Shown one piece after another: positions 30,060 to 58,773 of a stretch of 64,000 nt of DNA. Both the position numbers and the translations under genes were made by a program. Below the pieces are notes generated by a model. It had not been told where the DNA came from and searched no databases. It saw nothing but the letters and a program-made list of their open reading frames with translations. Location: the NCBI RefSeq assembly GCF_028748185.1, contig NZ_CP118164.1, forward strand, positions 1,550,001-1,614,000, written 5' to 3'. The number at the start of each line of letters is the position of its first letter. Within the stretch, counting starts at the first letter, position 1. This DNA comes from Bremerella sp. P1. GTDB taxonomy: Bacteria; Planctomycetota; Planctomycetia; Pirellulales; Pirellulaceae.

Positions 30060-31508
30060 TTACTTCCACGGTCCTTGTAGCTTGCCACCGCGTAGCGATT
30101 GGAGGCCGCGAATCTGGACGCGGTCTTGGTTTTTGAACGAGATCACCGGGCTCAGGCCGATCTCCATCAGTTTGGCCAATTCATCATCAGTCAGCAGGCA
30201 CTCTCCGCAAGGATGGGCATCGCCGTCTTCGGCCGGGTCGTAGTAGACCGGCAGGTCGCTGAACTGGGACACGGCGGAAGTGTCCTGGCTCCAGCCGGCT
30301 TCGTTATAGCCGTTGGCAAGGGCCGTACATGCCAGCCATACGGGGCTGCCCCAGGCCAGTTGGCTTCCACCGGGCTTCGAGATCTCTTCGAAGTCGAAGC
30401 TGTCGGTCGACTTATACTTCTTGCCGTACGGTAGCCGCAATTGCACCCTGGGCCAAAGGCCGGCCACGTTCAACATGGGCCGCGTGATGCGGTTGGCGTT
30501 CCACGCTTCGTGGATGGGGGACTCAGGGTCGAGCCACTGCTCTTTAGTTGCTCGCAGCTCAATTGCTGCGGAAGCTCCGGCCGACTGGCAAAGGTCCCCC
30601 AGCTTCGCCGCGAGAATTAAGTCGTCCTGGTTCACTGCGAAGGGAAACAGGCAGCCGACCACACCCCACGGCGTGGCCCCGGGTGTCTTGGAAGGGGTCG
30701 TCATCAATTCGGCCAGCCAGCCGGTTTGCCAGTTTTCGTCCTGCAGTGCTTCGCGAAAGGCCTGGGCCGTGGTGTCGAGAATGTAGATCTTCAGCTTGGC
30801 GTGCGTTTCGACCTGGAAGGTCATCATCCGCAGCCCTCGCCAGTTCATTTCCAACGCATGAAACTTCGGCCCTTGCAGCACACGACGCATGGTCTCCTGG
30901 ATCGCCTCATCGACGACGGCAACGAGTTCGTCCTGCCGCGGATCGACCTTTTGGATATTGCTGCCGGCAAGAACCTCTTCGATGAACGCACCCCAGTTGC
31001 CTGTTTCCAAAGGCGAACCGCTGGTGTCCGTCGATTGTGAGAGGACGTCCGCGAAGAGATCTTCCGAGCCTGGTGCCGCGGCTGAAACGCCCTGCGTTGG
31101 TTCAGGCGTAGCCGGGGCCGCTTCTTCCTGCTTCGGAGCCCATGCCATCACTTCGGCCGCAGCGGCCTCAAAGTGCTTGGGGTTTTTCAGGCGACGGCGA
31201 AGCGTACGGAGATTCTCAAACAGGGTCAGCTTCTCGAACAGTTCATCCGGCTCGAAGTCCTCGAACTCTTGGAACTCGATATCTTCGGTTTGGCCATCGG
31301 CCGATGCGAGGATGCCGTCGAGACGCACACCCAGTTTCTCCGGCAACTCGTACAGATTGTCGCGATCGACAAAGACCGGCTTGGGGCTCTTCCGATCGTC
31401 CTCGTGGCCGGTGCCACGGAAATTGCCAATTAGCAGTAAGTGCAACGGGGTTTTCTCGTTGACTTCAGGAGCATGAGAACGCGAACCACCAACTTGAATT
31501 TCCGCCAT
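30060..31508 (-). CDS. T6SS contractile-sheath-like protein, TssB-TssC fusion
   Basis: A 482-aa protein that appears to join two sheath subunits. Residues about 20-115 resemble TssB (ImpB): LHLLLIGNFRG, then VFVDRDNLYELPEKLGVRL, then the FEDFEPDELFEKL segment. Residues about 180-480 resemble TssC (ImpC): FHALEMNWRGLRMMTFQVET, WGVVGCLFPF, VQLRLPYGKKYK and a LPVYYDPAEDG-like stretch. The ending at LQSLRGGKLQGPWK comes before the last 100 or so residues of normal TssC. A Pro/Ala-rich linker joins the halves. TssB-TssC pairs form the sheath around the Hcp tube; this fusion may be a specialised sheath or cap component. An FHA gene lies 49 bp upstream on the same strand. Confidence 0.8.
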   Translation of the reverse strand: MAEIQVGGSRSHAPEVNEKTPLHLLLIGNFRGTGHEDDRKSPKPVFVDRDNLYELPEKLGVRLDGILASADGQTEDIEFQEFEDFEPDELFEKLTLFENLRTLRRRLKNPKHFEAAAAEVMAWAPKQEEAAPATPEPTQGVSAAAPGSEDLFADVLSQSTDTSGSPLETGNWGAFIEEVLAGSNIQKVDPRQDELVAVVDEAIQETMRRVLQGPKFHALEMNWRGLRMMTFQVETHAKLKIYILDTTAQAFREALQDENWQTGWLAELMTTPSKTPGATPWGVVGCLFPFAVNQDDLILAAKLGDLCQSAGASAAIELRATKEQWLDPESPIHEAWNANRITRPMLNVAGLWPRVQLRLPYGKKYKSTDSFDFEEISKPGGSQLAWGSPVWLACTALANGYNEAGWSQDTSAVSQFSDLPVYYDPAEDGDAHPCGECLLTDDELAKLMEIGLSPVISFKNQDRVQIRGLQSLRGGKLQGPWK

Positions 31509-33879: not shown

Positions 33880-34268
33880 GATGTTAAATCTTGCGCCTAA
33901 CTTAGAGGGAACGAGTCCAACAATCGATTAGATCAGTATCTAAGTGCCTCGTCAAACAATTACGTCCTAAGGCTTTCATGCAATGAAGCTTAAAGCGAGT
34001 GCATCCTAAGAAGGGTGCAAGTAAGACCGGCCAATGCCGTCACAATCGATTCGTTCGACAACATCGCGCATACCCCGTGGTTTACCCCAACTGTCCCGAT
34101 GACTGCAATCGCCAAGAATACCCCGGAAAACCGGAATAATTCGGGGAGTTTTGCGACTTTGCCCACGACACTTTTCGCGTTTGAGGGAAGAATGAAATCT
34201 TAACCCAACAAGGGCAATCGGGCCCTGTTACCTCGTCCCATTCTTCTGACCCCTTCGTGAAAGAGCTC
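33880..34268. other. Divergent intergenic region, no gene seen
   Basis: About 390 bp between the FHA gene and the methyltransferase gene. It must contain promoters for both. I see no convincing -35/-10 pair, no sigma-54 GG-GC pair and no gene; short open frames here have no domain-like content. Confidence 0.4.
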
Positions 34269-36133: not shown

Positions 36134-39100
36134 ATGGCCAAGCTGACTCCCGGCATGAAGCAGGATTGGAAGCACCGCCCGTCCAAAGGCAATAAGCCGA
36201 TGAACAGGATGGTTCGCCTGTTCTTCGTGGCGACGCTGTTTCTCATGCTGGTTGGCGTCCTCATTTGGTTTTTGCTTCCCCCTGCCCAGCAAAGGACCTA
36301 TTTCTTTGCTGCCAACCCGATCGAATATGATCTCTGGGCGACGGTACCGCTGGTTCATAGCTCGGTCGCGGAAGAACTTGCCAAAGAGGGAAATCACGAT
36401 CCGAGGTCGTTTCACATGGGCAGCATCGCCCTGGAAGAAACATTTCCGCCGATCGATCAGTTGGCCGCTCAAGCAGCCAATGGCAACATCCCCGGTCAAA
36501 ACGATGCCTGCGTCCTCTATATCCAGGCGCATACTTTGCGGTACGACGTGGAAGGCACACCCCACGTGGTGGTCGCGACTCCGACTTTCCTGCGCAACTC
36601 GCTGGCGAATTGGGAAAACAGCGGCGTCCTTGATTTGAATGTCGTGCTGGACTGGATCCAAACGGCCAATTGTCCGCTGAAGTTGGTATTGCTCGATGCC
36701 GGTACGATCGTGACCGACGGTCGGATTGATCTGTACGAGAACAACTTCACCTCGGCCTTGGAAACCGAGATGCGAAGCCGGAAAGACTCAAATCTGTTTC
36801 TGATTACCTCGCACGAGAATGGCCAGAAGTCGCTTTCGTTGTCGCTCCAAAGAAACTCGATCTTCTCGCAGGCCGTCCAGGAAGCACTGACCGGCAAAGG
36901 TATCAGTGATATGTCAGGCGACAACTCGCTGGACCTCAATGAGCTGTATCATCACATCTGCGTGCGGGTTCAGAATCACCTCGGCGAAGGCGTCATCGCC
37001 CAGACACCGCGTCTATTTCAAGGGGGACAGGGAATTCTCAAAGAGGACTTCCCTGCCAAGTTCGTTTGCCGCTACTTCGAGGAAAAGAAGAAAGAAGGAG
37101 ACGAGGAAGAATCGTCAGACGAGACCAAGGAAAAGGAACCGACTCCACCACCAGAACCGAAACCGGATGCCGAGAAAGACGGCGACAAGAAGGATGGCGA
37201 GTCGGCGGAAGAAAAGGATCCCCGCTGGGCAACCCTAGATGAAGTGTGGCAACTACGCGAACAGCTGGCTCAGCCTCCTGCTCGCCGCGGAGACATGATC
37301 TGGAGTCCGATCGACTTCGCTCCACAATACTTCCGCCGTCTCGACAGTTACTTGATCGGCTACCAGTTTCGCCTGTTGTTTGATACCGGTAGCGTTCCTG
37401 AAGAAAAATTGACGATGATGAAGAATTCGCTGGAAGTTCTTCAGGCGCATCTTCAAGAGCAGCGAGCGGTCCAAGCGATTCCGCCCATCAGCGATACGCC
37501 GGCCGACAACTTGATTGAAGCCTGGAATAAGTTCGTCAATACGCCGTATCAACTCGCCGGCAGTGCCGATTTGACCGACGACGGCATCAAGGCCCGCAAT
37601 GCGGTTCTTAGTTGGAACTACTGTGTTTATCACGTGCCCGAACTAACCCAGATGTTCGAGCATACCGGCAGCGACTCGACCTTGGCCGGCTATGAATCGC
37701 TTTTGAAAGATATCCGCGACGTCACGATTGGGATGCTCGAAGTTCCTCCCAGCGGCTCCGGCGGGCCTGAACTAACACATCTGACGCTGGAAAGCGTCAT
37801 TAACCGTTCGGTGGGCGAGATCGAGGGAATGCGACGATTTGCCAACGCCGACATGACGATCGTGCCGCGAGATAAAGAGTCGTCGAACCTGAATGCGCAG
37901 ATGGCGGACGCGTTGCGGCTTCTCGGCTACCTGCGAACGGCTATGCCCACGGCGGCCGATCGCAAGAAGATGGCCGACTCGCTACGCGAATTCTCGCAGC
38001 AACCGGTCCCTGACTACACGTATATTGATAACTCAGTGCCCTTCTTGGCACGCTTGTCCACGGCCGCGCTACCGCGGGCCTCGGAAGCAAGCATGAAGAA
38101 GCTAAGAAGTCTGTATCTCGAGATCGCCGAGGCAGGCAGCCCGCCGGCTGGAAACCCGGCAACTCCATTTGTGGCGATCGGTGAGACGATTCAGGCCAAC
38201 ATGCCATCCGATGCCGACTATCGTAGCCAGGTTTGCTACCAGGTTCGCGTACGTACGCTCGATTGGCGTGACACCAATCAAATTGTGGGGAGAGTCGCTC
38301 CCCTTCCCTTCCGCTTTCCCGTGAAGGAAAAGATCCCGCGTCTGACGATCCGTCCCGGCAAAGAGACGCAATCGCTTCAACTCGATCGAGTCGATGAACA
38401 AGTCGATTTTGAGTTTGAATTGACAGCAGCGAACTTCCCGCCTGGGCAAGTCGTGTTCACCGTCGAATATGATCGCAATGCGTTAGACGTTTCGTTTAAG
38501 AACGGCAGCTTTGATGTGGCGAACGGTACGCTGAACTACACGATTGATGCCAGCGGTCCAATCACAATCCAAGGAAGTGTCTCGGCCAAGCTTGACCGCG
38601 AAGCGAACGCATTGCGGCGAAAGATGACTGACATCCGTGCCGCCCAAACCGAACCAATTGTCTTTACGATTCCGGCCAAGTTCATTCCTCCAGGAGCCGA
38701 GTCAAGCCGATCAGGCACGCTGAACGTATCCCTCCCCTGGGCCGAGCAGATCGACCTGGTTATTCAACAAACCGGAGCATCGGGGCCTGGGATCTACTAT
38801 GGCCAACGCGTACAAGTCCCCCTGTTCGATAACCGCGAGTCGGAATTTCGCTTGGGTGTTATCAATCGTTCGCGGATCGAGCGAAAGGTCGATGTCGCCA
38901 TCTACCCTGTCGTTCGACCTGAGACCAGCTTGATGCCTACCGGGCGTATCTTCTCGGATCAGTATCATCGCAAACCAATCGCTGGCGGGGCCGATAGCCA
39001 AGAAGCGGAAATTGCTCCGTGGCGTGTGGCGACCTACGAGCGTCCCTTGGTTAACTTGGGCACTGACTTTCTGCCCACAGGCGTCGCCAGTGGTCTTACC

Positions 39101-40942
39101 CTGACGTCCTACGATCAGATTCCGCCGCCAGCAACGAGGGCACGCGGCCGCATCGTGAATGAAGCCGTGCAACCGGAACGCTGCGAGTGGCTACGATTTA
39201 CCGGTCCGCCTGGGCCGCCGGGACCGGACGGAAAGCCAGGCGAAGCAGGCAAGGTTGCACAGACCGATATCTCGAATGGACTGCTGGTGGTCATCACCGA
39301 CCAGGTCAACAAGGACGCCAACAACAACCCGGTTCGCTGGATGCGCTGGATTGAATGGGTCCCTCGCAAGCCGCAGTCTTACTTAGATGTCCAGACTTCG
39401 GTCTTGCCGGCGGACAAGCTTTCTCGCTTGGAGATGATCGTTCAACCGATCACTGGTTCCCGTTCACTTCCGACCGCCACTTGGGACGCACAGCGACTGT
39501 TCGGCTTTCCCAGCCTTCCTCATAATCTGGCCAAGGTACCAATTCGTTTGGAATGGGATTGGAAGTGGGAAGACACTTTCGACGATTCCGAACTCATCAA
39601 GCGTCAGGCATTCGGTACGATCGCTTCGCCGGAAGCCACCGCAACACTCGGTGCGATTCTTAATCTCGACGGCACCAAGCCTGTCAAACGTCCGATCCTG
39701 GTGGACGTGGCTTGCGGAGAGAAGCTGCCGACATTGCGGCGAGCGTTTCGCACGGTCATGAATTTGGATACCGGTAAACTCGACGCCGATGCCTCGGCCG
39801 GTTTTGAAGCCCTGCGTCTCGACTCGTACCTGCCGCATGTCGAAGACGAAGAAAAACCGCTACCCACGGTCGATGTCATGGCCACGTCATGGCCTTCGAG
39901 TCGGCTGCCGATCATCCTGCCATCCAACATCGAAACCATCGACTGGATGATGGCGATTTCAACTGATACCAATAGCTTCAACGGCGCTAGTGAGATCAAT
40001 CCCGATAAAATTCAATTGGGGCTGCTTGAATCCGGCAATGGTTTTGAATCGGCTCGGTTGAACTTCACCGAGACGATTTACTCGAACCGTTCGTTCTCAG
40101 CTCAATTGACCGCCGCCCAGGCAGAAGGCCCGCTGGTGATTACGGCAACGCTTCAAGATGTGGTCGCTTCCGGGCTGAGTGCCAAGACGTACGAAACGTT
40201 TGTCGGCGATTTCGTTGTCGAGATCTTCAATGGTCCCAAACAAGTAAACGATTTGCGGATCCCGGTCGTGATCGACAAAGATCCACCGACGATCAATATC
40301 CAACCGTCGCCGCTGACCATTCCCGTCAACGAAGGACTCAAGGTAACCATCCCTACGCAAGATAATGACTCTGGCATTAAGTATCTCGAGTACGGATCGC
40401 CAGGGCCTGGCGATACGATTGCCGACAAGCCATTGAGACTGGAACCACTCGTCGGCAACATCTTGCCGAATCCCAACGATACCTTCCTGCGAAATCCCCA
40501 GTTTGTTCTGAACATTCGCCCGGCCGAGTTGAAGTGGGATGTTGGCACCACCCATAAGCTACGCGTTCGCGCGGTGAATCGCGCCGACTTAAAGTCCGCT
40601 CCACTCGACCTGATCGTGCGAGTAGGCCCCAAGAGTGACGAGCCAATGGACGACGGGATGATGCAGCTCATGGTCATCAAGGCCCAGGTGGTCTTCGTGA
40701 ACGGACGCGCCGCCACCGACCCGAAATACAAGCCGAGCATTAAGGAACTGCCCCTTCAACCGCGACTCGATCCAGATGGCGTGACGTGGGTCTTTGAAAG
40801 CGACATGCTTAAGCCAGGCACAAACTACACGCTTCAATCGAGTGGTCGGCAATCCTCTGGCGGAATCAAGTCGACGGAGACGGTCGCCCAGGCCACCCCG
40901 GCCAAAGACCGTGCCCCAGTTTATAAACTGAAGTTTGACTAG
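36134..40942 (+). CDS. Giant membrane-anchored protein with inactive caspase-like domain and Ig-like regions
   Basis: A 1602-aa protein with a short basic cytoplasmic tail and one TM segment (28-49). A caspase-like (peptidase C14) fold is suggested at about 125-330: CVLYIQAHTLRY holds the His position (His133), and KLVLLDAGTI has Gly190 where active caspases and metacaspases have Cys in LLDAC. A Glu/Lys/Pro-rich linker (about 340-390) leads to a helical region (to about 700), then several beta domains including a short collagen-like GPPGPPGPDGKPGEAGKV (1024-1041). ATG 36134 is preferred; the frame to 36047 lacks a ribosome-binding site at a proper distance. It resembles the 1767-aa protein two genes on. 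Confidence 0.8.
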   Translation: MAKLTPGMKQDWKHRPSKGNKPMNRMVRLFFVATLFLMLVGVLIWFLLPPAQQRTYFFAANPIEYDLWATVPLVHSSVAEELAKEGNHDPRSFHMGSIALEETFPPIDQLAAQAANGNIPGQNDACVLYIQAHTLRYDVEGTPHVVVATPTFLRNSLANWENSGVLDLNVVLDWIQTANCPLKLVLLDAGTIVTDGRIDLYENNFTSALETEMRSRKDSNLFLITSHENGQKSLSLSLQRNSIFSQAVQEALTGKGISDMSGDNSLDLNELYHHICVRVQNHLGEGVIAQTPRLFQGGQGILKEDFPAKFVCRYFEEKKKEGDEEESSDETKEKEPTPPPEPKPDAEKDGDKKDGESAEEKDPRWATLDEVWQLREQLAQPPARRGDMIWSPIDFAPQYFRRLDSYLIGYQFRLLFDTGSVPEEKLTMMKNSLEVLQAHLQEQRAVQAIPPISDTPADNLIEAWNKFVNTPYQLAGSADLTDDGIKARNAVLSWNYCVYHVPELTQMFEHTGSDSTLAGYESLLKDIRDVTIGMLEVPPSGSGGPELTHLTLESVINRSVGEIEGMRRFANADMTIVPRDKESSNLNAQMADALRLLGYLRTAMPTAADRKKMADSLREFSQQPVPDYTYIDNSVPFLARLSTAALPRASEASMKKLRSLYLEIAEAGSPPAGNPATPFVAIGETIQANMPSDADYRSQVCYQVRVRTLDWRDTNQIVGRVAPLPFRFPVKEKIPRLTIRPGKETQSLQLDRVDEQVDFEFELTAANFPPGQVVFTVEYDRNALDVSFKNGSFDVANGTLNYTIDASGPITIQGSVSAKLDREANALRRKMTDIRAAQTEPIVFTIPAKFIPPGAESSRSGTLNVSLPWAEQIDLVIQQTGASGPGIYYGQRVQVPLFDNRESEFRLGVINRSRIERKVDVAIYPVVRPETSLMPTGRIFSDQYHRKPIAGGADSQEAEIAPWRVATYERPLVNLGTDFLPTGVASGLTLTSYDQIPPPATRARGRIVNEAVQPERCEWLRFTGPPGPPGPDGKPGEAGKVAQTDISNGLLVVITDQVNKDANNNPVRWMRWIEWVPRKPQSYLDVQTSVLPADKLSRLEMIVQPITGSRSLPTATWDAQRLFGFPSLPHNLAKVPIRLEWDWKWEDTFDDSELIKRQAFGTIASPEATATLGAILNLDGTKPVKRPILVDVACGEKLPTLRRAFRTVMNLDTGKLDADASAGFEALRLDSYLPHVEDEEKPLPTVDVMATSWPSSRLPIILPSNIETIDWMMAISTDTNSFNGASEINPDKIQLGLLESGNGFESARLNFTETIYSNRSFSAQLTAAQAEGPLVITATLQDVVASGLSAKTYETFVGDFVVEIFNGPKQVNDLRIPVVIDKDPPTINIQPSPLTIPVNEGLKVTIPTQDNDSGIKYLEYGSPGPGDTIADKPLRLEPLVGNILPNPNDTFLRNPQFVLNIRPAELKWDVGTTHKLRVRAVNRADLKSAPLDLIVRVGPKSDEPMDDGMMQLMVIKAQVVFVNGRAATDPKYKPSIKELPLQPRLDPDGVTWVFESDMLKPGTNYTLQSSGRQSSGGIKSTETVAQATPAKDRAPVYKLKFD

Positions 40943-41248
40943 CGATTTTCATCAGTTTTTGATGATCGCATCGCTAGCGTTCACTTAGGCCTGAAAGTCT
41001 TCCCAGCCTCTTCACCTCTCCAATTCCGGATATCAAGCCGGCAATCCTGGCAAACCTTGCGGATTCAGTTGAGTTCGCAGCCTGGGAAGATCATTGCGCA
41101 AGCATCTTGAATACTGTTTTTATGGGACATGGACTCCGATGGTAGTGCATGTGGGGGGAATTTTAATGCCCGTTGATCCCGTGCATTTGAACTCATCACT
41201 CCCAAAGGCATTCCCTGAACTTGCGTCATAAACAACAGGAAGTTAACC
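40943..41248. other. Intergenic region with a weak nested hairpin
   Basis: About 306 bp. A nested inverted repeat (AGCGAT...ATCGCT enclosing CATCA...TGATG) starts at the stop codon near 40943-40978 and may terminate the giant gene, though it lacks a T-run. Upstream of the next gene ACAGGAAG forms its ribosome-binding site. Nothing else was recognised. Confidence 0.4.
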
Positions 41249-42472
41249 ATGGTCAGGCCATCCCTGCCGTACGCCTTACTCGTGTGCGTAGCCATGTTCG
41301 CCAATGGATGTGCAATCCACTCGGCTCCTCCAACTGTCACGGTTTGGAACAAGCTTGGCATCCCACAGGCATTTGATGCCGCGAACGCTAACTGGGTTAA
41401 CCGTCGTGGTAACAACCCGCAGCGGGAACGCACTCCTCCGCTGAAGCGTATTGCGGATCCGGCTAACCTGGAATCGCCTAATCCGGCGATCAAGGCTGCC
41501 GCCGAAATCAAGGCCGAAGAAGATCTCGCACCACAGAAAATCAAGGCTTTGAAGTATCTCGCGACCATCGGTTGCGGTTGTTACGACAAAGAAGGCAAGG
41601 TGGAAGCCGCTCTGCTGGCTGGCCTGAACGACTGCACCGAAGAAGTGCGTAAGACGGCTGCCGAGACTGTTCTGGAATTGGTGGGCAAATGCTGCTGCCA
41701 CGACGGATGTGGCAATAACTGCTGCACCGAAAAGATTCAAGAGAAGCTGCAGGACATGGCCTACGGCGAGACCGACGGATGTTGGCACGAACCTTCGGCT
41801 GAAGTCCGAGCGATCGCTATGCAAGCCCTGTCGGCATGTCCACCCATCAGCGTGGTACCTACCGAAGACGAAAATCGTGAGACGGTTCCGACTCCGCCGG
41901 TTCCTGGTCGCGAAACGGCTCCAGGTGCAGGCGAACCACTGCCACCGATCCCACCACCGACGCCAATGGAAGCCTCGAACTCGAAGCTGCAAAACGCAGA
42001 GTTCGTTTCGCTGCCTGCCGCTATGGTCAAGGCTCCGGAAACCAACTTCTATGCCCCGATCAACGTAGGATTCGCTGGCGAATTTCCTGCCCAGGTCGTC
42101 AAGAAGTCGGAAGTGAAGACTGTCTCGGCTCAAGAAGTTTCGACGAAGACTCCACTGGTGGTCCACGATCAGCCAGAAAGCTCCTTCATCGTTCCTGAAG
42201 TGCCAGCCGCGAAAGAACCTGTCGTCGTGAGCACGAAGGTCGAATTCGTCCTGGATCATTCCAAGATGGCCGTCATGCACATGCCTAAGACAGCCAAAGT
42301 CGCCGCCGGCGAAGTGTTGGCCATTCAAATTCACAGCCGCCGCGGTGATCACACGATCGACGGCAAGGTGAAGGTGATGAAGATCGACGGGAGCCTCGTG
42401 CATGTCAGCCCAGTTGATGGATTGGCTCTGCGAGTTCTGCGACCAGGTAGCACGATCTCGATCGCTCGCTAG
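41249..42472 (+). CDS. HEAT-repeat lipoprotein with Cys cluster
   Basis: A 407-aa lipoprotein: signal peptide with hydrophobic core YALLVCVAMF and lipobox ANGC. Residues about 80-205 form HEAT-like helices (KIKALKYLATIGCGCYDKEG, then CTEEVRKTAAETVLELVGKC) interrupted by a dense Cys cluster CCCHDGCGNNCC (148-159) that could bind metal or form disulfides. A Pro-rich region (about 210-245) and a beta-rich C-terminal domain (about 320-405) follow. GGAAG lies seven bases before ATG 41249. It sits between the two giant proteins and may act with them in the envelope. Function unknown. Confidence 0.8.
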   Translation: MVRPSLPYALLVCVAMFANGCAIHSAPPTVTVWNKLGIPQAFDAANANWVNRRGNNPQRERTPPLKRIADPANLESPNPAIKAAAEIKAEEDLAPQKIKALKYLATIGCGCYDKEGKVEAALLAGLNDCTEEVRKTAAETVLELVGKCCCHDGCGNNCCTEKIQEKLQDMAYGETDGCWHEPSAEVRAIAMQALSACPPISVVPTEDENRETVPTPPVPGRETAPGAGEPLPPIPPPTPMEASNSKLQNAEFVSLPAAMVKAPETNFYAPINVGFAGEFPAQVVKKSEVKTVSAQEVSTKTPLVVHDQPESSFIVPEVPAAKEPVVVSTKVEFVLDHSKMAVMHMPKTAKVAAGEVLAIQIHSRRGDHTIDGKVKVMKIDGSLVHVSPVDGLALRVLRPGSTISIAR

Positions 42473-42503
42473 ACGATCTGCTTCCGCAAGTAAGAATGCC
42501 ATC

Positions 42504-42541
42504 AAACGCCACGTCATTGGCTATCCAAGACGTGGCGTTTT
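42504..42541 (+). terminator. Rho-independent terminator of the HEAT lipoprotein gene
   Basis: A 12-bp perfect stem (AAACGCCACGTC with GACGTGGCGTTT), a 13-nt loop and a short T-run. It uncouples the lipoprotein gene from the 1767-aa gene 187 bp later. Confidence 0.85.
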
Positions 42542-42728
42542 GCTTTCTTGTCGCCCCAGGTCAGTGTTCTGGGTCTATGTTTTTAGAGAATCTCGCTCTC
42601 CTGGGTACTGTTTATCTGGTAACCTCGATGGAAAGGCATTGGGATTGTTTTACAATCACCGCCAGAGAACGAGTGCGACCGAGAATCGATGACTCCCATA
42701 TGCAATAGATAGGAGCTAGGCGAGTATC

Positions 42729-45700
42729 ATGGCCGATTGGCGTGAAGGTAAGAGTAAACCGAAGTCCAAAAGCAAACCGGCCAGTTCTCCTCCGCCTGCT
42801 TCCAAGGCTCCCAAAGATCCTTCTGATTGGCGTGGTCGCAAAAAGCACGAACAAGCAGCAGGAGGTCATCGTTCCGATAAGACGTATCTCCAAGAGAACA
42901 AGCCGAAGGGGCCGAAGCATATCGGCATTCTCAACCTTCTGCTGTTTGCCTTGGTACTACTGGTTGGCTCGTTCATCGCCATTATTGGCTGCCAACCGAC
43001 CAAGACCCCGATGATGCACCTGGCCACGTTCGAGCATGATGACTCGTTGTGGGGCCCCAATGCGTTTGCCCAAGAGGATCGCAGCAACTTCACGCTCTCG
43101 ATGGAAGACTCGGCGAGCAACATCGAACTGGTCGCTGGACAAGGAATGGCTGCCGGCGCCGAACAGAAGAAGCCTTGGACCAATCTGAACGACTCCGAAT
43201 TCACGTCTGCCGTGACGAAATACCTGGATATCGCCAATGGCCCAGGAGGACCTCGGCCCGGTGGCTGGATCTTCTATTTAAGTTGCCATGGCGTGACCAA
43301 CTTCGATGGCGTTCCCTACCTGGTGGCAAAGAACAGCCAGGCCCTTTCTCCCGAGAAGCCGGAAGCCAACGCCAAACTAGTTCCCCTGGAATCAGTCCTC
43401 CGCGCGATCGCCGATCACCCGAAGGTGAAGAAGCACCCGAAGTCCTATAAGCTTTTGGTCTTCGACATCGGACGTATGGAGTCTCAATGGTCGGCCAACC
43501 GTCTCTTTAATGACTTTCCCTCTTCCGCACAGTTGTTGGCCAAAACGCTGCCGCAAGACATTCAACTCTCGAACACTTATCTTCTGCTGTCCAATAGCGA
43601 TGGACAAAAGTCGTGGGCCAATCCGTACGAAGGAGGCTCCAATTTCGGCCTCTTCTTCGGTCGCGGATTGATGGGTGCGGCCAACGAGATGGCCTCGTCG
43701 GTAGACGACGACAGCGTTTCCCTCGCAGAGATGGAAGCGTACCTGACCAAGAATGTCGACGACTGGGCTGTCCAGCATCGCAACTCCCGCCAGGTTCCTG
43801 TCTTGATTCCGATTGGGCAATCTCCTGGCGCTGCCAATGTGCTGCTAAGCCGAGTCGGCGATGCCAAATTCCAGATTAGTCCCAACAGTGCCGCCGGTTC
43901 GACCACTTCCGACCAGGAGCGCCTGGCGCAGCTCTGGGATGCGTTGCAACTTCTCGGAGATCATGGTGCTCTGAGGTTGGCACCTTATCGATTCAGCTTG
44001 ATTCAATACGACCTGATCCGAGCCGAAAGTCTTGCGGAGTCTGGTGTCGCCTATCAATCAGAACTGACGCAAAGCCTGAAGGCCTTGAACAAGTCGATCG
44101 ACAACTTGGCCATGACGCTCGCCCAGTACGATACCGGGGCGAAAAGCGCCATCATGAACTCGCAGCTGCCGTATTATCAGGGAAGCAGCTTACAGCGCGA
44201 TCTGGCCGAAGCCGAGCCTTTCCCGGTCAGCAGCCTGGCCTGCTGGCGGTCGACGAACCCAGGCCCGCTTACCAAGATCCCTACGCTCGCAGAATTGAAA
44301 GCCAACGCAGACAAGATCGAGGAAGAATCCAAAGACAAAGAGATTCCCACCGACAAAAGAACGAAGCCGCTGGTTTGCGAAGACTACTACGCCGCAGCAG
44401 AGTTCCTGCTGGATCATTACACGACCGAAAACCAGCGGGACATGACCCCCGCGAATATCAATTTGATCTTGGAATACTTGCGTTCAGCTCCGAACTCGCC
44501 GGTTAAAGGTGAAAACGAAGGCATGCATGTCATCGAGATCGAGTTTCTCGCGATGCTGCGTGACTTCTTCCAAACGCTGGAGACGAACTTTGGCATCGAA
44601 GCGACGTCCTATGATGCGACGGACTATCGCAATGCCATGGTCGACGCTCTGGCCTGTCGTCGTCGCATGGAAAAGATCGCCTTCGTCGAAGACCAACGCG
44701 TTTTCCCCTGGCTCGAGCAAGGGCTCGACAACGCCGACGAAACACGTCGCGAAGCCGAAGACCGCTTGTTCGCTCTACAGCCCAAGAAGACCATCGAACT
44801 GATTCAACCGTTGGCCGACGGGTCGAAGGGGCTAGAAGCTCTAGAAAAGAAAAAGGCCCGCCTGATCGAAGCCTATGTAGTGGTCGACAGCGTCAGGGCA
44901 TCTGCTCCGTTCTTGCTTTCGTGGCTGACCCATCATCCCTACCCCAATGCCGATCGTCAGCTGCGTATGGGACAGGTAACCGCTGCCATCGAGAAAACCC
45001 ACGAACTGGCAGATGCCCTCACACCACGAAAGCTGGAAGGCGAGAGTCGTCCTGACTATACCAAGGTGCCCGTTCCCGAGCAGGCATTAATCGATGAGAT
45101 CACCCAAAACTACAGCGATGTGGTTCGTTTCCTGAATCGTGAGTCGCAAGACATCATCGATGCCCAAGGTGGCAAGGATCGTTCCGATTCGGAAACGCTA
45201 CTGGAAATCTACAACCTGTTGCGAGTTCGCTTCGTCGCGAAGCTGACTCCTTCGATGACGACCTACGATCGAAATTCACTGCGGGCTAAGAAGCAGTCGA
45301 TCCTGGGGCAGTCGTTAGGCAACGTCAACGTCAAGCCGGACTCGATGAGCCCGTTGATTCTGGGGCTGTCCTCGTACGAGAAAGGCCCATGGCAATTGGC
45401 CATGAACCAAGCCGGCGGTCCTTCTGATTACCGCATCGCCCCGCTCAGCCCGGATCGTGAGGCGAATGCCCAGTTGCTTTTGAAAGACACTGGCGCAGTA
45501 GTTCTGTTTGCTGAAAAGGTGGTCGAGCAGGCACTGGAAAGCTCGCTGGCTCCGACGCGCGAGATTGAATCGTTTCCGAGTGCTCCGAATGCTGCCGAGG
45601 CAACCGCATTTACCGGTTTGGTTGTCCGCAACCGTTCTCGCGTGGATGGCAATGTGAAGACGCCTTCCCAGATCGAATTCCGTATTCAGCGGAAGGAACA

Positions 45701-48032
45701 CCTGGCCTGGTCGGCCAATCGGGCGATGGAAGATTTCTGGGGCAATAACTCCCTCAATCCTTACTTCGACCGGCTCTCGCAAAGCTTTCTCGAACCCTTC
45801 AGCCTTGAGTCGGCGAATGCTCCTAGTGAACTGTCTGGCAAGGTCATCAATCGGCTCAGTACGCTACGAAAAGACTATAGCCGTTGGGTCGAAGTCGGTA
45901 ACCCGCCCGAGTCGATCAACGACTCTTCCGACGATATCAAACATAAGATGACCATTCATTATCCGCAGTCGATCCCCGCCGGCATCTCCGCGATCGACTT
46001 GCTGGTCGACGAAGGGAAAGCAATCGCCGTCGCAGACTCCAGCGGTCAGGTCGAGCCGAGTCATCCGTTTGACACGCAGCCGGTGGGTCTCTACCAGGCA
46101 CAGCGTCCCTTCGAGCAGATCATCAAAACTAAGCAGGTCTTGCAGACCACGGCCCGTACCGAGCGGATTCGTTTTCGTGGCAATGCCCGGCGTTTCCCAC
46201 TTCAGATCTCAGGTACGCAACGACCAGATAGCATTACCCAGGTTGTTGACATCAATCCCTTCCCATTTCGTCAGCCTACCGTCTCGGTGACAGGCGAGCT
46301 GTCTGGTACTGCGGACGTGATCTTCATCCTGGATTGCTCGGCGACCATGGCGAAAACGGTTCCCGGCAATCCACCAGCTTCACGCATGAGCGTTGCCAAG
46401 GGTGTGCTCAAAGATATCCTGGGAACGATGGCGAGTCCCAAGGGGCAGTTCCGTGTCCTCACCTATGCGTTTGGCAGCCGAGTTGGCTGGGATGCCAACA
46501 ACAAGGCAATCCAGCGACCTGGTGTTGATGTGCCTGCGGGAATCGTGCCGGCAAATGACGTCATGGCATTGGTGAATCAGAATCTGACGCCGCTGCTCAA
46601 TCGTGCTCCGCAACGAAATGAACCCGGCGTGGATGTCGCCCGCATTCAGGACGAAATTGAAGGCCTGGAAGCGTTCGGCGAAACTCCCCTCTACTATTCG
46701 ATCTATCAAGCCCTGCAAAAGGTCGACCCCAGCAAGCCAACCCAGATCATCGTCATCACCGATGGTGCGAACGACCAGGCCGATGATCCCGCAGGCCGGC
46801 CATTCCGCACCAGTGCGATCAATCTGATCGATGAACTAGAAAAGCCCAAGTATCGCAACACCCAGCTGCAAGTCGTAGGATTCGCCTTGGGACAACAGGC
46901 ACGCAACCTGGAGACCGATCCTAATTCCAAACCGCCTGCGAATACGCTGACTGAGATTGCCTGGCTAGCGAAGAACCGCGGACGGGGTGGCTTCCTGCCT
47001 GCCGACCAACAGATTGAGCTAAAGCGGCGCATCGAGGAGTTGATTAAGACCAAGATTTACTTCTCGGTTCAGCGAACCGACGATCCCAAAGAGCCTGTCC
47101 CCTACGATTTCGGGGCCATCTGGTACGCCAAGGATCGCTTCGATGATCGCCGGCATGACTATACCGTGCGCGAACTCCACACGGACGATACAGCAAAAAT
47201 CCAGCTGCGTGGTGGCGAAAAGGTCCGCCTGGCATACGACGGGAAGCTCAAGCAACTAGTGTTCATCGATGACCCAGCTGAGGAAGCCGCCCAGGCCAAT
47301 ATTTCGGTCAATGATGCTCTGAAATACGACGGCGAGTACGTGGCTCGGATCCTCAATTTCCAAGCGCCGGACCCTGATACTGGCACGCTGGAAATTCCGA
47401 CCCGTCTCGAGAACACCAACAACACACACTTCACGGTCCGTCCCTTCCATATCTGGGCCGAGATCGTACCGAGCGTGACCAACGCGTTCAGTCCCAACGA
47501 AGTTTTCGAGACGCGGTACTTCAGTGATGTACTGCTACGAAATGAAACGCAGTTTCCGGAATTCTTGATTCGCTTGAATCAGTGGCAGCCGGCGGCCAAG
47601 TGGGCGCGTGTAAAGATTTACACCCAGCTCGAGAAGCCGATCAAGCCGAAGAAGACCATCTCGCTGAGGGATCTGCTGGTCAACAATGTCACCAACAGTG
47701 GCGCCGACTTCGAGTCAGGCAATTTCAAGGTCGAGTCCTCGACGAGCCTGGATCAATACAAGTACCACATTGTGGTGCGGGTTGATCCAGGAACGCAGGG
47801 AATTCAGCCTCATCATGTCGGCATCACGCCATCTCCGCCGCGAATTCAGCGAACGTACACCCTCGCAGGGGATGGTAGCAAAGAGATCCTGAATATCACC
47901 CATCGATTCATGTACGAAAGCAAGACCGACGTCGAAGCGGCGGCCGATCCGAGAATCGATATCTGGACGCGGGAACAATTGACCACAGGGGCTCCGTCCT
48001 TCTCGGTCGACGTGCAAATCCCTAAATGGTGA
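42729..48032 (+). CDS. Giant membrane-anchored protein with inactive caspase-like and vWA domains
   Basis: A 1767-aa protein. A Lys/Pro/Ser-rich cytoplasmic tail (1-64) precedes one TM segment (66-87). A caspase-like domain (about 165-365) shows FYLSCHGVTNFDG (His187-Gly188) but KLLVFDIGRM has Gly248 where Cys is needed, so peptidase activity is unlikely. A long helical region (about 400-900) and beta segments follow. A vWA domain starts near 1195: the MIDAS motif D1202-x-S-x-T1206 (DCSAT) and a second Asp1345 in VITDGAND are present, so metal-dependent ligand binding is plausible. AGGAG lies upstream of ATG 42729 at a long spacing. It is followed by hcp, vgrG and PAAR genes. Confidence 0.83.
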   Translation: MADWREGKSKPKSKSKPASSPPPASKAPKDPSDWRGRKKHEQAAGGHRSDKTYLQENKPKGPKHIGILNLLLFALVLLVGSFIAIIGCQPTKTPMMHLATFEHDDSLWGPNAFAQEDRSNFTLSMEDSASNIELVAGQGMAAGAEQKKPWTNLNDSEFTSAVTKYLDIANGPGGPRPGGWIFYLSCHGVTNFDGVPYLVAKNSQALSPEKPEANAKLVPLESVLRAIADHPKVKKHPKSYKLLVFDIGRMESQWSANRLFNDFPSSAQLLAKTLPQDIQLSNTYLLLSNSDGQKSWANPYEGGSNFGLFFGRGLMGAANEMASSVDDDSVSLAEMEAYLTKNVDDWAVQHRNSRQVPVLIPIGQSPGAANVLLSRVGDAKFQISPNSAAGSTTSDQERLAQLWDALQLLGDHGALRLAPYRFSLIQYDLIRAESLAESGVAYQSELTQSLKALNKSIDNLAMTLAQYDTGAKSAIMNSQLPYYQGSSLQRDLAEAEPFPVSSLACWRSTNPGPLTKIPTLAELKANADKIEEESKDKEIPTDKRTKPLVCEDYYAAAEFLLDHYTTENQRDMTPANINLILEYLRSAPNSPVKGENEGMHVIEIEFLAMLRDFFQTLETNFGIEATSYDATDYRNAMVDALACRRRMEKIAFVEDQRVFPWLEQGLDNADETRREAEDRLFALQPKKTIELIQPLADGSKGLEALEKKKARLIEAYVVVDSVRASAPFLLSWLTHHPYPNADRQLRMGQVTAAIEKTHELADALTPRKLEGESRPDYTKVPVPEQALIDEITQNYSDVVRFLNRESQDIIDAQGGKDRSDSETLLEIYNLLRVRFVAKLTPSMTTYDRNSLRAKKQSILGQSLGNVNVKPDSMSPLILGLSSYEKGPWQLAMNQAGGPSDYRIAPLSPDREANAQLLLKDTGAVVLFAEKVVEQALESSLAPTREIESFPSAPNAAEATAFTGLVVRNRSRVDGNVKTPSQIEFRIQRKEHLAWSANRAMEDFWGNNSLNPYFDRLSQSFLEPFSLESANAPSELSGKVINRLSTLRKDYSRWVEVGNPPESINDSSDDIKHKMTIHYPQSIPAGISAIDLLVDEGKAIAVADSSGQVEPSHPFDTQPVGLYQAQRPFEQIIKTKQVLQTTARTERIRFRGNARRFPLQISGTQRPDSITQVVDINPFPFRQPTVSVTGELSGTADVIFILDCSATMAKTVPGNPPASRMSVAKGVLKDILGTMASPKGQFRVLTYAFGSRVGWDANNKAIQRPGVDVPAGIVPANDVMALVNQNLTPLLNRAPQRNEPGVDVARIQDEIEGLEAFGETPLYYSIYQALQKVDPSKPTQIIVITDGANDQADDPAGRPFRTSAINLIDELEKPKYRNTQLQVVGFALGQQARNLETDPNSKPPANTLTEIAWLAKNRGRGGFLPADQQIELKRRIEELIKTKIYFSVQRTDDPKEPVPYDFGAIWYAKDRFDDRRHDYTVRELHTDDTAKIQLRGGEKVRLAYDGKLKQLVFIDDPAEEAAQANISVNDALKYDGEYVARILNFQAPDPDTGTLEIPTRLENTNNTHFTVRPFHIWAEIVPSVTNAFSPNEVFETRYFSDVLLRNETQFPEFLIRLNQWQPAAKWARVKIYTQLEKPIKPKKTISLRDLLVNNVTNSGADFESGNFKVESSTSLDQYKYHIVVRVDPGTQGIQPHHVGITPSPPRIQRTYTLAGDGSKEILNITHRFMYESKTDVEAAADPRIDIWTREQLTTGAPSFSVDVQIPKW

Positions 48033-48433: not shown

Positions 48434-48925
48434 ATGGCTGGTTACATCTTTTTCGACGCCATTCCTGGGGAAAGCACCGATTCGGAACACAAGAACTGGA
48501 TCAACCTGTTGTCGGTGAGCGAGGCTATTTCTCGCATGGTGCAGCGTGGTAAGTCGGGTTCGTCGCGTAACGTGCAAAGTGCCGTCTTCGACGACCTGGT
48601 CTGTGTCAAAGAACTGGACAAGTCGACTCCAAAGATCATCGAGTCGGTCGCTTCCGGTAAGGTTCACCCGGTCGTCAAGCTCGACCTGTGCCAATCGCTG
48701 GGTGACAAGGGCAAGCGTCTGCCTTACTTCCAGTTCGAGTTGAAGAACGTGATCGTCACCAGCTACAGCTTCAGTGCTGCGGTTGACGACGATGGTACCG
48801 TGCCAACAGAATCGTTCGGCCTGAACTTTGAAGAAGGCAAGTGGACCTACAATCAGTACGGTAAGGACGGATCGAACCAAGGTAAAGTCGAAGCCACCTG
48901 GAAGGTGGAAGAAGGCACTACCTAG
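48434..48925 (+). CDS. hcp: Hcp-like T6SS tube protein
   Basis: A 163-aa protein of the Hcp family: the MAGYIFFDAIPGEST start, the WINLLSVSEAIS strand, DLVCVKELDKSTP, and the long LPYFQFELKNVIVTSYSFSA stretch with the typical FEEGKWTY close. Hexamers of Hcp stack to form the inner tube expelled by the sheath. ATG 48434 has GGAGAG upstream. A strong terminator directly after the gene lets Hcp be made independently and in excess of vgrG. Confidence 0.93.
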   Translation: MAGYIFFDAIPGESTDSEHKNWINLLSVSEAISRMVQRGKSGSSRNVQSAVFDDLVCVKELDKSTPKIIESVASGKVHPVVKLDLCQSLGDKGKRLPYFQFELKNVIVTSYSFSAAVDDDGTVPTESFGLNFEEGKWTYNQYGKDGSNQGKVEATWKVEEGTT

Positions 48926-49073: not shown

Positions 49074-51407
49074 ATGAATCAAGCACAAGAGCACCGCGCA
49101 TTTGCCCTCGAAGACAGCTTGGGGGAGGATTTCTTTCTCTTGTCGTACACGGGGAACGAGGGGATCTCGAGACTGTTTAACTATCAGCTTTCGTTGGTAT
49201 CTCGCCGAGAGAATCTGGAGCACAAGCCAGAAGAAATCATCAACAAGGAAGCCAAGATCCGCTTCTCTTACGGCGACAACGAAAAACGCTACATCAAAGG
49301 TTACATCAATCGTTTCTCGTCCGATTATCAGCCTGGCACCATGGCGCAGTTCAACGCCGAAATGGTTCCGTGGCTCTGGTTTCTGACGCAAACGTCCGAC
49401 TGCCGAATCTTCGAAGATAAAACCATTCCGGAAATCATCGAAGACGTCTTTAACAGCGAACCGATCAGTAGCATTGCAAAATTCAGCACCAATCTGCAGA
49501 AGAACTATCCGAAGCTCGAGTACTGCGTGCAATACCGCGAGACCGACTTCAACTTCGTCAGCCGCCTGATGGAAGAAGCAGGTATTTTCTACTTCTTCGA
49601 CAACTCAGGAGATGGTTCGAACAGCGATAAGTTGATTCTCGCCGATAACGCCCAGGCGTATTTCGATACGGCCGAGAAAGACGCCATCCAACGTACATCG
49701 TCGGCCGGAACGCACGGATACGAGTCCGAGATTCTCGATTGGGAACATCGCTACGAATTCGTCTCGGGCAAGTGGACCCATTCCGATCACACCTTTAAAG
49801 AACCCTACGAGAACTTCGAGAAGAACTCGGAGACGAAGATCAGCAACCAGCTTAGCTCGGACTTCAAGAAGTACGAACTGTATGATCACCCAGGCGACTT
49901 CGTCGACTCGAAGTCTTCGGGCAATGCCAGTTCGCAGTCGACCGAACTCTCGAAGGTTCGCATGGGCGAAGAGGAGGTTGTGTTTGATCGTGTCGTAGCT
50001 ACGAGCGACTGTACTACCTTCGCTCCCGGCGGGAAATTCACGCTCAACTCCAAACGCGTTCCAGCAGACGACGGCAAGACGTTCGCGATCATTTCGATTC
50101 AACACACCGGATCGAACGCGAGCTATACCACCGGTTCTGAGTCGGGAACGGAATACAGCAATACCTTCACGTGTATCCCGGAAGACGCGATCTACAATCC
50201 GCCCCGTACCACGCCAAAGCCGATGGTGGCCGGTATCCAAACGGCAACTGTCGTGGGTCCGGACGGTGAAGAAATTCATACCGATGAATACGCGCGAATT
50301 AAGTGCCTGTTCCATTGGGCTCGGCCTAAGAACAAGAATCGCAAGAAGCCTGACACTGAAATCTCGTGCTGGGTACGTGTTGCTCAGGCGTCTGCCGGAA
50401 AAAAGTGGGGCTTCCTCTCGATACCGCGTATTGGCCAAGAGGTTGTTGTCGACTTTTTAGACGGCAATCCCGATCGACCGCTCGTTGTCGGGTCGGTTTA
50501 CAACGAGATCCAGAAGACGGCATACAACCTTCCGGACGACAAAGCCAAGACGTATTTCAAGACCAACAGTACGCCTGGTGGTGATGGATTCAACGAACTC
50601 TTCTTCGACGACAAAGCGGAGAAAGAGCGGATTTTTCTACACGCCCAGAAGGACTTGGATGTCCGCGTGCGTAATGACTCGCGTAACCGCACCTACGGCA
50701 ATCGTTCGCAGATCATTGGTTGGGAAAAAGACGGAGACAAAGGCGGTTCCCAGCGGGAAATGATTTACCAAGACAAAGAGATCAACGTCAAACGTCATCA
50801 GATCGAGCACATCGAAGGCAATCATCAAATGATGATTGGTAATGGCGAAGAGCCTTCGGGTGGCAACCTGGCAATCGTTATCGAAAAGAATGTGGGAATC
50901 CTGATCGGGCAAGAGGGTTCAGGCCTGACCAACGAAGGGGACTCCAAGACCTGGATCAAAGGCTCGCAGGATATATCGGTCGATAAGGACTGGCGGCAAA
51001 GCTCCAAGTCGCTTCATATCAGCGTCGACAACGCCTACAACTCGAAGGCCACCGACATCAGCACCGAAGCCCAGATGGATCTCCAATCCAAGGCCGGCAT
51101 GAACATGAACTACGGTGCTGGTATGGACCTGAATCTGAAGGGCGGCATGAACGTCAACATCGAAGCTGGTCTGAGCCTTTCGCTGAAGGTTGGTGGTAAC
51201 TTCATCAACATCAACCCAGGCGGCGTCTTCATTCAGGGAACGTTGGTGAATATCAACAGCGGTGGCTCGGCAACGTCCGCGGCCGACGCCAGTCCCGCTT
51301 CGCCTGATTCACCGGTCAAACCAGAACAGAACGTTGAAGAAGCCGCTCCGACTGAACCAGACATGGCTCACAATGAAGAAACCGGCTTCAAGTCCGCACC
51401 TGATTAA
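49074..51407 (+). CDS. vgrG: T6SS spike protein VgrG (TssI)
   Basis: A 777-aa VgrG. The gp27-like part (about 1-390) includes FFLLSYTGNEGISRLFNYQL near the start and the FVSRLMEEAGIFYFF motif. The gp5 OB-fold segment (about 400-490) has IKCLFHWARPKN and SIPRIGQEVVVDFLDGNPDR. The repetitive beta-helix (about 600-735) ends in Gly/Asn-rich repeats. The roughly 40-residue tail is Pro/Ala/Ser-rich, with no added effector domain. The trimer caps the Hcp tube and carries PAAR and effectors. The start at ATG 49074 lacks a strong ribosome-binding site. The PAAR gene lies 24 bp downstream. Confidence 0.95.
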   Translation: MNQAQEHRAFALEDSLGEDFFLLSYTGNEGISRLFNYQLSLVSRRENLEHKPEEIINKEAKIRFSYGDNEKRYIKGYINRFSSDYQPGTMAQFNAEMVPWLWFLTQTSDCRIFEDKTIPEIIEDVFNSEPISSIAKFSTNLQKNYPKLEYCVQYRETDFNFVSRLMEEAGIFYFFDNSGDGSNSDKLILADNAQAYFDTAEKDAIQRTSSAGTHGYESEILDWEHRYEFVSGKWTHSDHTFKEPYENFEKNSETKISNQLSSDFKKYELYDHPGDFVDSKSSGNASSQSTELSKVRMGEEEVVFDRVVATSDCTTFAPGGKFTLNSKRVPADDGKTFAIISIQHTGSNASYTTGSESGTEYSNTFTCIPEDAIYNPPRTTPKPMVAGIQTATVVGPDGEEIHTDEYARIKCLFHWARPKNKNRKKPDTEISCWVRVAQASAGKKWGFLSIPRIGQEVVVDFLDGNPDRPLVVGSVYNEIQKTAYNLPDDKAKTYFKTNSTPGGDGFNELFFDDKAEKERIFLHAQKDLDVRVRNDSRNRTYGNRSQIIGWEKDGDKGGSQREMIYQDKEINVKRHQIEHIEGNHQMMIGNGEEPSGGNLAIVIEKNVGILIGQEGSGLTNEGDSKTWIKGSQDISVDKDWRQSSKSLHISVDNAYNSKATDISTEAQMDLQSKAGMNMNYGAGMDLNLKGGMNVNIEAGLSLSLKVGGNFININPGGVFIQGTLVNINSGGSATSAADASPASPDSPVKPEQNVEEAAPTEPDMAHNEETGFKSAPD

Positions 51408-58630: not shown

Positions 58631-58773
58631 GAAGCTATATCCCCCAATTCGTTGCGCGCACCTACACTCGAACCCAGGCACTACGGCTGGATGGCGACGC
58701 CTTTTCTCGATCCTAACTCAATTCTAGTTCGGGTGAATTAAGGATCTCAAAGAAAGTTTGATGATAACGCGCC

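Follow-up and report, generated by a model that had tools for sequence, protein, structure and literature searches.

Giant proteins with caspase-type domains that have lost the catalytic cysteine accompany a type VI secretion system with a truncated TssM in the class of Bremerella sp. P1

Two giant membrane-anchored proteins with caspase-type domains, here called A and B, are near-certain associates of the type VI secretion system (T6SS) in Bremerella sp. P1 and its relatives. Together with an exported HEAT protein encoded between them, they quite probably form the periplasmic parts, and probably the outer-membrane-side parts, of a distinct T6SS membrane complex in the host's class. The structural role is likely; the association with the T6SS is observed directly in the genomes compared below.

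Results

The window analysed here is a stretch of 64,000 nucleotides (G000:C1:1550001-1614000) from the genome of Bremerella sp. P1, which comprises 6.96 Mb on one contig. Both of the giant proteins named in a preliminary description of this sequence were found as open reading frames on the forward strand. Giant A (36134..40942) is 1602 aa long from its ATG, or 1631 aa from an alternative GTG start 29 codons upstream, and giant B (42729..48032) is 1767 aa long. Between them, on the same strand, lies the gene for a 407-aa HEAT protein (41249..42472; Pfam HEAT 1.8e-4, just under the cut-off). B is followed, again on the forward strand, by genes for the inner tube protein Hcp (48434..48925; Pfam T6SS_HCP 5.2e-29) and the spike protein VgrG (49074..51407; Pfam Phage_GPD 7.1e-76), giving the order A-HEAT-B-hcp-vgrG. 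Neither these three neighbours nor a link to the T6SS figured in the preliminary description. The rest of the T6SS core begins about 28 kb past B (stretches L093 and L094) and consists of a ClpB-type ATPase, TssG, TssF, TssE, TssC, TssB, TssA, a 564-aa TssM, TssL and TssK. The 898-aa ATPase is assigned as ClpV by its position, and TssE by clustering with a relative confirmed by Pfam. The window and these two stretches together contain the sheath, tube, spike, baseplate, ATPase, TssK and TssL of a T6SS-i core.

Other genes of the window were also noted. A single reverse-strand open reading frame (30060..31508) encodes a 482-aa sheath-like protein in which Pfam recognises first a VipA (TssB) and then a VipB (TssC) segment; this unusual sheath paralogue adjoins an FHA protein, and the ordinary tssB and tssC genes lie about 53 kb away. 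FHA proteins are encoded near A and B at 31558-33879, ahead of A on the reverse strand, and at 51791-53035, the second of them close to a gene (53207-58681) for an 1824-aa Ser/Thr kinase with WD40 regions, for which phospho-control of the T6SS is a possible function. Upstream of A, positions 34257-35885 encode a methyltransferase with MethyTransf_Reg and PKMT_2nd domains, whose cluster occurs in eight stretches, mostly of the same genus; T6SS parts may be its modification targets.

Architecture and paralogy of the giants

A and B each possess a single N-terminal hydrophobic helix, as the preliminary description had it. In A, a cytoplasmic tail with the motif DWKHR and one transmembrane helix are followed by the pseudo-caspase domain (36293..37111, forward strand, supported by an A-only profile and the alignment), a middle region and an Ig-like C-terminus. 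B has a tail with DWRGRKK, one transmembrane helix, the pseudo-caspase domain (43002..43853, forward strand, supported by AlphaFold2 and Foldseek), a middle region, a vWA domain and a C-terminal region. The N-terminal helix was predicted in 43 of 44 giants, and an N-inside orientation according to the positive-inside rule fits 42 of those 43; both proteins cross the membrane once, and the predicted N-inside topology leaves at least about 1500 residues of each on the other side. The short cytoplasmic tail carries W-R or W-K (W[RK]) in 38 of the 44. This tail motif, at 36164-36178 in A and 42825-42845 in B, is a candidate docking signal.

Apart from a weak vWA match in B, neither giant matched a Pfam or NCBIfam model, and at E 0.01 no NCBIfam model was matched by A, B or the HEAT protein. 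In profile searches the C-terminus of A resembled a NOMO2 chain (E 1.1e-7) and an SdrD chain (1.2e-4). The vWA domain proposed for one of the giants proved to be real: B matches VWA_2 at E 5e-4 (Pfam, under the cut-off), and its profile finds PDB vWA chains at E 5.6e-10. Within the vWA core (46323..46766, forward strand, from the alignment and the profile search against the PDB), DCSAT (residues 1202-1206), GETP and TDG are conserved, in keeping with the intact MIDAS seen earlier, and the DxSxS/T, T/S and D residues of this predicted metal site are kept in 16-18 B sequences. A model of B residues 985-1767 was poor (pLDDT 45, pTM 0.36).

A and B had been taken for paralogues, and we found that they are. 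The A-only and B-only domain profiles align with each other in hhalign at probability 100 (E 3.2e-45). A midpoint-rooted tree was built from the 58 giants of the window and 39 stretches that reach 1400 aa, with L090 and shorter frames left out; it separates 28 A-clade from 30 B-clade sequences (labels 0.68 and 1.0). Both genes are under purifying selection, which agrees with the view that they are not decaying: dN/dS against three congeners was 0.03-0.08 for the whole genes and for the domain, values that are approximate because dS ranged from 0.9 to more than 5, near or beyond saturation. The giants adjoin hcp and/or vgrG in the host's own genus, which would suit a role as T6SS cargo, either effectors or adhesins. 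The N-terminal transmembrane segment with its predicted N-inside topology, the retention of both clades across families and the strong purifying selection all argue against cargo, and we regard that explanation as very unlikely.

The pseudo-caspase domain

AlphaFold2 was run on residues 92-395 of B with eight sequences and gave a model with a pTM of 0.73 and a mean pLDDT of 63. When this model was compared with the PDB by Foldseek, the best 50 matches were all caspases or MALT1, with a top E value of 3.7e-9; over these 50 matches the query TM was 0.46-0.50 and the rmsd 5.5-10. Metacaspases ranked first when the model was searched against a viral structure library. Structure prediction and fold search of the B domain therefore bear out the caspase fold that had been suggested, and for A the support comes from sequence profiles. 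A profile made from 22 A-clade domains alone found nine caspase-type proteins of the phylum with E values of 2.7e-10 to 1.2e-21, and a B-only profile found the same nine at 7.7e-9 to 2.3e-21; these control proteins had originally been obtained with a combined A and B profile. The A-only profile matched none of the reversed decoys at E up to 10.

A and B gave nothing at E 0.1 against Pfam PF00656 (Peptidase_C14). Of nine proteins scanned with this model, seven passed the cut-off, namely six caspase-type proteins and the B-clade relative L129 (25.2 versus 21.4 bits); L143 and the A-clade giant L135:12803 failed it. When PDB chains were searched by sequence with the domain profile, no caspase was returned; the best match (E 0.35) was an unrelated remodeller, and weak EF-hand matches fell on the acidic loop. 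The caspase assignment came instead from the fold comparison and from C14 proteins of the phylum. The most likely history is that the A/B family descends from a caspase-type peptidase and has lost catalysis almost everywhere.

The motif LVLLDAG of A (residues 184-190; 36683-36703) aligns with LLVFDIG of B (residues 242-248; 43452-43472), and the glycine that ends both motifs occupies the column in which caspase-family proteins of the same phylum have the cysteine of DAC, a coincidence of columns that is more than chance. B retains CHG within YLSCHG (residues 183-188; 43275-43292), and the histidine of YIQAHT in A (36518-36535) falls in the same alignment column as the CHG histidine. Thus in both paralogues the catalytic cysteine is replaced by glycine (LVLLDAG and VFDIG), with CHG retained in B, as originally reported; where active Peptidase_C14 proteins have a Cys-His pair, A and B have glycine and a retained histidine. 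Of eight comparison proteins, six have cysteine in that column (D-A-C) and six have the histidine; the comparison group also contains a ninth row, which is a cut A giant.

Among 46 aligned rows, which include a cut A giant and L090, a B fragment without N-terminus and without the domain, cysteine was never found in the catalytic column. Glycine stands there in 26 rows, H, T and N in four each, A in three, Q in two, and P, S and V in one each; the histidine is kept in 33 of the 46. The host's own genus is more uniform, with glycine in 16 of 16 sequences and histidine in 15 of 16. The proposal of a conserved cysteine loss with a role other than catalysis therefore holds in so far as the domain is non-catalytic in both paralogues. 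A fixed glycine among homologues is not supported: glycine is fixed in the genus only and the position is variable elsewhere. Free variation here had been named beforehand as a ground for refutation; in part it applies to the glycine, and it does not touch the non-catalytic nature of the domain. Judged from these alignments, glycine is the outcome of one lineage, and the general feature appears to be the loss of catalysis.

A set of 60 rows contained cysteine in the catalytic column twice, in L144, a Cul7-repeat protein that was counted among the giant rows and is not a T6SS giant, and in L135:7860-12785. The latter, from the T6SS-positive genome G160, is a B-clade giant with D-S-C and G-H-G, and the only T6SS giant with an apparently intact caspase pair. 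It might be supposed that the domains are still proteolytic and that the nucleophile has been relocated, to the D-C of some sequences or to the cysteine of CHG in B. L135:7860-12785 would agree with this, as would the five of 46 rows in which cysteine stands one residue earlier (D-C). Both window proteins, however, have an LLD motif without cysteine, and a catalytic column with no cysteine in 46 rows, and with cysteine in one T6SS giant only in the 60-row set, makes continued proteolysis barely credible. The window's own genome also encodes another Peptidase_C14 protein, of 494 aa (L128:1144-2628), in which Tyr and Ser replace His and Cys; its version in a congener (L138) has both His and Cys.

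Co-occurrence with the T6SS

The distribution of the giants was examined in 40 genomes, the host's own and 39 relatives. A was present in 19 and B in 21 of these; A and/or B occurred in all 23 TssF-positive genomes and in none of the 17 TssF-negative ones (Fisher p 1e-11, calculated per genome, the genomes not being independent). TssF-positive genomes occur in 16 of 32 genera, and the one TssF-negative congener (G003) has neither A nor B. Full-length A and full-length B are both found in 18 of the 23 T6SS-positive genomes; in three others (G012, G032 and G034) either A or B is present as a fragment only, G017 has B only and G028 has A only. Two TssF genes are present in G027 and in G038, and G038 also has two A and two B. 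Seven further genomes of the class each contain both A and B. The HEAT protein is distributed similarly, in 22 of 23 TssF-positive versus none of 17 TssF-negative genomes, and was not found in the TssF-positive G014; its matches in G012 and G030 are weak (2e-19 and 1.7e-11) and could be other HEAT proteins.

A second set consisted of 294 genomes of the phylum, with G000 and G001 common to both sets. It includes 21 genomes of the host's class, nine of which have TssF, and all nine encode giants of at least 1400 aa. Among the 12 TssF-negative genomes of the class, six gave no domain match, four gave matches in frames of 895-1137 aa, and two (the T6SS-negative G254 and G265) gave weak matches in frames of unlisted length. 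The caspase domain itself was matched in 107 of the 294 genomes, with at most nine candidates scored per genome, so the link to the T6SS concerns the giants and not the domain as such. Outside the class, four long caspase proteins (L145-L148, 1292-1447 aa) match the caspase-domain profile only and not the rest of A or B; the source of L145, G152, is TssF-positive. Four more (L149-L152), encoded by T6SS-negative members of the order or class, likewise match the domain profile only. This check of specificity is not clean, as L133:11934, L134:4601 and the giants in L136 and L137, all divergent, also match the domain profile only; their length, tree placement and position were the grounds for accepting them.

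These distributions bear on the idea that A and B belong, as pseudo-enzymes, to a death or stress pathway of the caspase type whose mechanism is unrelated to the T6SS, their linkage being regulatory or due to chance. The caspase fold would fit such a pathway, and caspase homologues without the dyad are common in Planctomycetes, where the dyad is conserved in 64% according to the available text of PMC3501461. Against it stand the exact co-occurrence with TssF in 40 genomes, the agreement in the 21 class genomes, and the fact that other caspase-domain proteins are also found in T6SS-negative genomes, L149-L152 matching in the domain only. We consider a separate death or stress pathway highly improbable.

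Gene order adds to the association. A giant is encoded at most 50 kb from tssF or tssM in 17 of 23 genomes, a count made on the main matches and not on every secondary piece; two genomes have them 454 kb and 2.8 Mb apart, and in four there is no common contig. G176 and G233 have the order A-tssM-B on one strand, with a 561-aa tssM product and gaps of 72 and 143-164 bp. The same order is found in G144, with a 55-bp gap and, at the chosen start, a 133-bp overlap of tssM and B. tssM is followed by B in G329 (gap 19 bp) and G012 (gap 173 bp), and A lies 3-4 kb from tssM in G015, G025, G028 and G032.

TssM is truncated and TssJ is not detected

In canonical TssM, three helices precede a large periplasmic part. 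The T6SSs considered here keep TssL (DotU) and the TssM N-terminus (IcmF_N). Among the 40 genomes, IcmF_N scored over the cut-off in the same 23 that have TssF, in 24 frames of 482-689 aa, and under the cut-off in one TssF-negative genome. All 24 frames end 0-17 residues past the last predicted helix. The TssM of the window genome, at 564 aa, also ends after its last helix and is not a full-length T6SS-i TssM. The C-terminal domain of TssM (IcmF_C, PF06744) was found in none of the 40 genomes in a six-frame search, and TssJ (PF12790) in none of the 40, with positive E. coli controls for both models. For comparison, the available text of a survey gives three helices for 63% of IcmF sequences (PMC2660368).

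In the phylum set, IcmF_C was detected in 22 of 294 genomes and in none of the 21 of the class. This model is insensitive, as 22 genomes compare with 69 that have TssF; its absence alone is therefore weak evidence, and the truncation of TssM is the stronger fact. Class genomes with TssF have TssM frames of 542-611 aa, whereas outside the class a frame of at least 1000 aa is present in 52 of 58 genomes with IcmF_N. The remaining six have frames under 1000 aa only and may include contig ends. Truncation of TssM thus coincides with the clade in which the giants occur. Restoration of a full-length TssM by transcriptional slippage, which is known in Citrobacter (PMC4256274, available text), was considered and rejected on the basis of the six-frame IcmF_C result in the 40 genomes, obtained though it was with an insensitive model.

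The HEAT protein

The HEAT protein is Cys-rich and predicted to be exported, and from its sequence (NGC, Cys21) it is likely a lipoprotein. Twelve aligned HEAT proteins of the order share an invariant Cys core (IGCGCY, DCTE, CC and GC), whose pattern suggests that these cysteines are probably disulfide-bonded. G-C is found at the end of the signal in nine of the 12; the other three have no such Cys, so that lipid anchoring may not be universal. The HEAT protein is a candidate functional stand-in for TssJ.

Discussion

A T6SS requires a complex across both membranes. In the genomes described here the periplasmic half of TssM is gone, and the T6SS is accompanied by three envelope proteins whose topology fits; replacement is the simplest reading. 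The balance tips slightly towards a specific form of it, an undescribed T6SS membrane complex in which tssM is cut to its membrane and cytoplasmic part, A with its Ig-like repeats and B with its vWA domain pair through their pseudo-caspase domains and replace the periplasmic half, and a disulfide-rich HEAT lipoprotein replaces TssJ. The truncated TssM and TssL would dock the baseplate on the cytoplasmic side, and A and B would attach to these two by their membrane helix and by the cytoplasmic tail with its conserved W-R/K. The periplasmic domains of A and B would form a channel or cage, the role of the TssM periplasmic part elsewhere, and the exported HEAT protein would provide the link to the outer membrane, like TssJ. 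The fold is a dimerising one in active caspases; here it would serve as an A-B assembly module in place of a protease. Profile searches with the middle of B, the C-terminus of B and the rest of A against the PDB returned no TssM or TssJ chain.

A and B could instead serve the T6SS as sensors or triggers in the envelope. A periplasmic ligand or damage signal would then be bound by their pseudo-caspase and vWA domains, and the tails would signal to FHA and kinase partners. The conserved MIDAS of the vWA domain and the proximity of the FHA proteins (31558-33879, 51791-53035) and the kinase-WD40 protein are consistent with sensing. Sensing would leave unexplained why these genomes combine a TssM cut short behind its last helix with the absence of any TssJ match, and it does not account for the A-tssM-B order or the frequent pairing of A and B. 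We therefore consider it unlikely, and prefer the replacement of the TssM periplasmic half.

Such a complex would share features with several known systems. As in the T6SS-i TssJLM complex of Pseudomonadota, TssL (DotU) and N-terminal TssM (IcmF) are kept beside TssK, and TssA, B, C, E, F, G, a ClpV-like ATPase, Hcp and VgrG are present. Unlike T6SS-i, TssM here stops after the last helix, TssJ and IcmF_C are detected in 0 of 40 genomes, and two giants and an exported HEAT protein are found instead. In the T6SS-iii of Bacteroidota, TssNQOPR replaces TssJLM and includes a vWA lipoprotein (TssR) and a PKD-domain protein (TssP), according to the available text of PMC10781749, in whose main text the word caspase is absent. 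The two systems resemble each other in that envelope parts are replaced by single-TM periplasmic proteins and a lipoprotein, with vWA and PKD/Ig-type domains that are alike in kind when compared by description. They differ in that tssJ, tssL and tssM are all absent there (PMC10781749, same text), whereas TssL and part of TssM are kept here; DotU and IcmF_N, the lack of which marks T6SS-iii, are both present. The vWA and Ig-type domains of both systems may reflect convergent use of common envelope domains.

The T6SS of Acinetobacter has also lost TssJ, a loss compensated by specific envelope proteins, and its TssM has gained a new domain; this likeness to the present system, as far as the available text of PMC10564176 goes, is accompanied by the difference that TssM is kept there and its periplasmic part is gone here. 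With prokaryotic metacaspases and other Peptidase_C14 proteins A and B share the caspase-type domain, which has phylum relatives with DAC and His; they differ in lacking the catalytic Cys and in being giants of about 1500-1900 aa tied to a T6SS. Rhodopirellula baltica was one of two T6SS species outside Proteobacteria in a 2009 survey (PMC2660368, available text), and another survey, devoted to secretion systems, has models for T6SS i-iii (PMC4793230, available text). The membrane complex is described as the T6SS part of bacterial rather than phage origin and the one that adapts most (PMC10564176, available text).

The literature matches listed, covering titles and abstract openings and leaving aside preprints and most subscription papers, contained no account of planctomycete TssM or of caspase-type T6SS parts, and a search combining type VI secretion, caspase-like and IcmF found no paper. 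To our knowledge, few designs of the T6SS membrane complex have been described. If the proposed replacement is true, it would explain how the T6SS is anchored in the envelope of these planctomycetes, and it would be a striking bacterial case of the caspase fold as a structural module. With half of TssM kept and the rest swapped for peptidases turned scaffold, it would also show which parts of the complex are truly essential.
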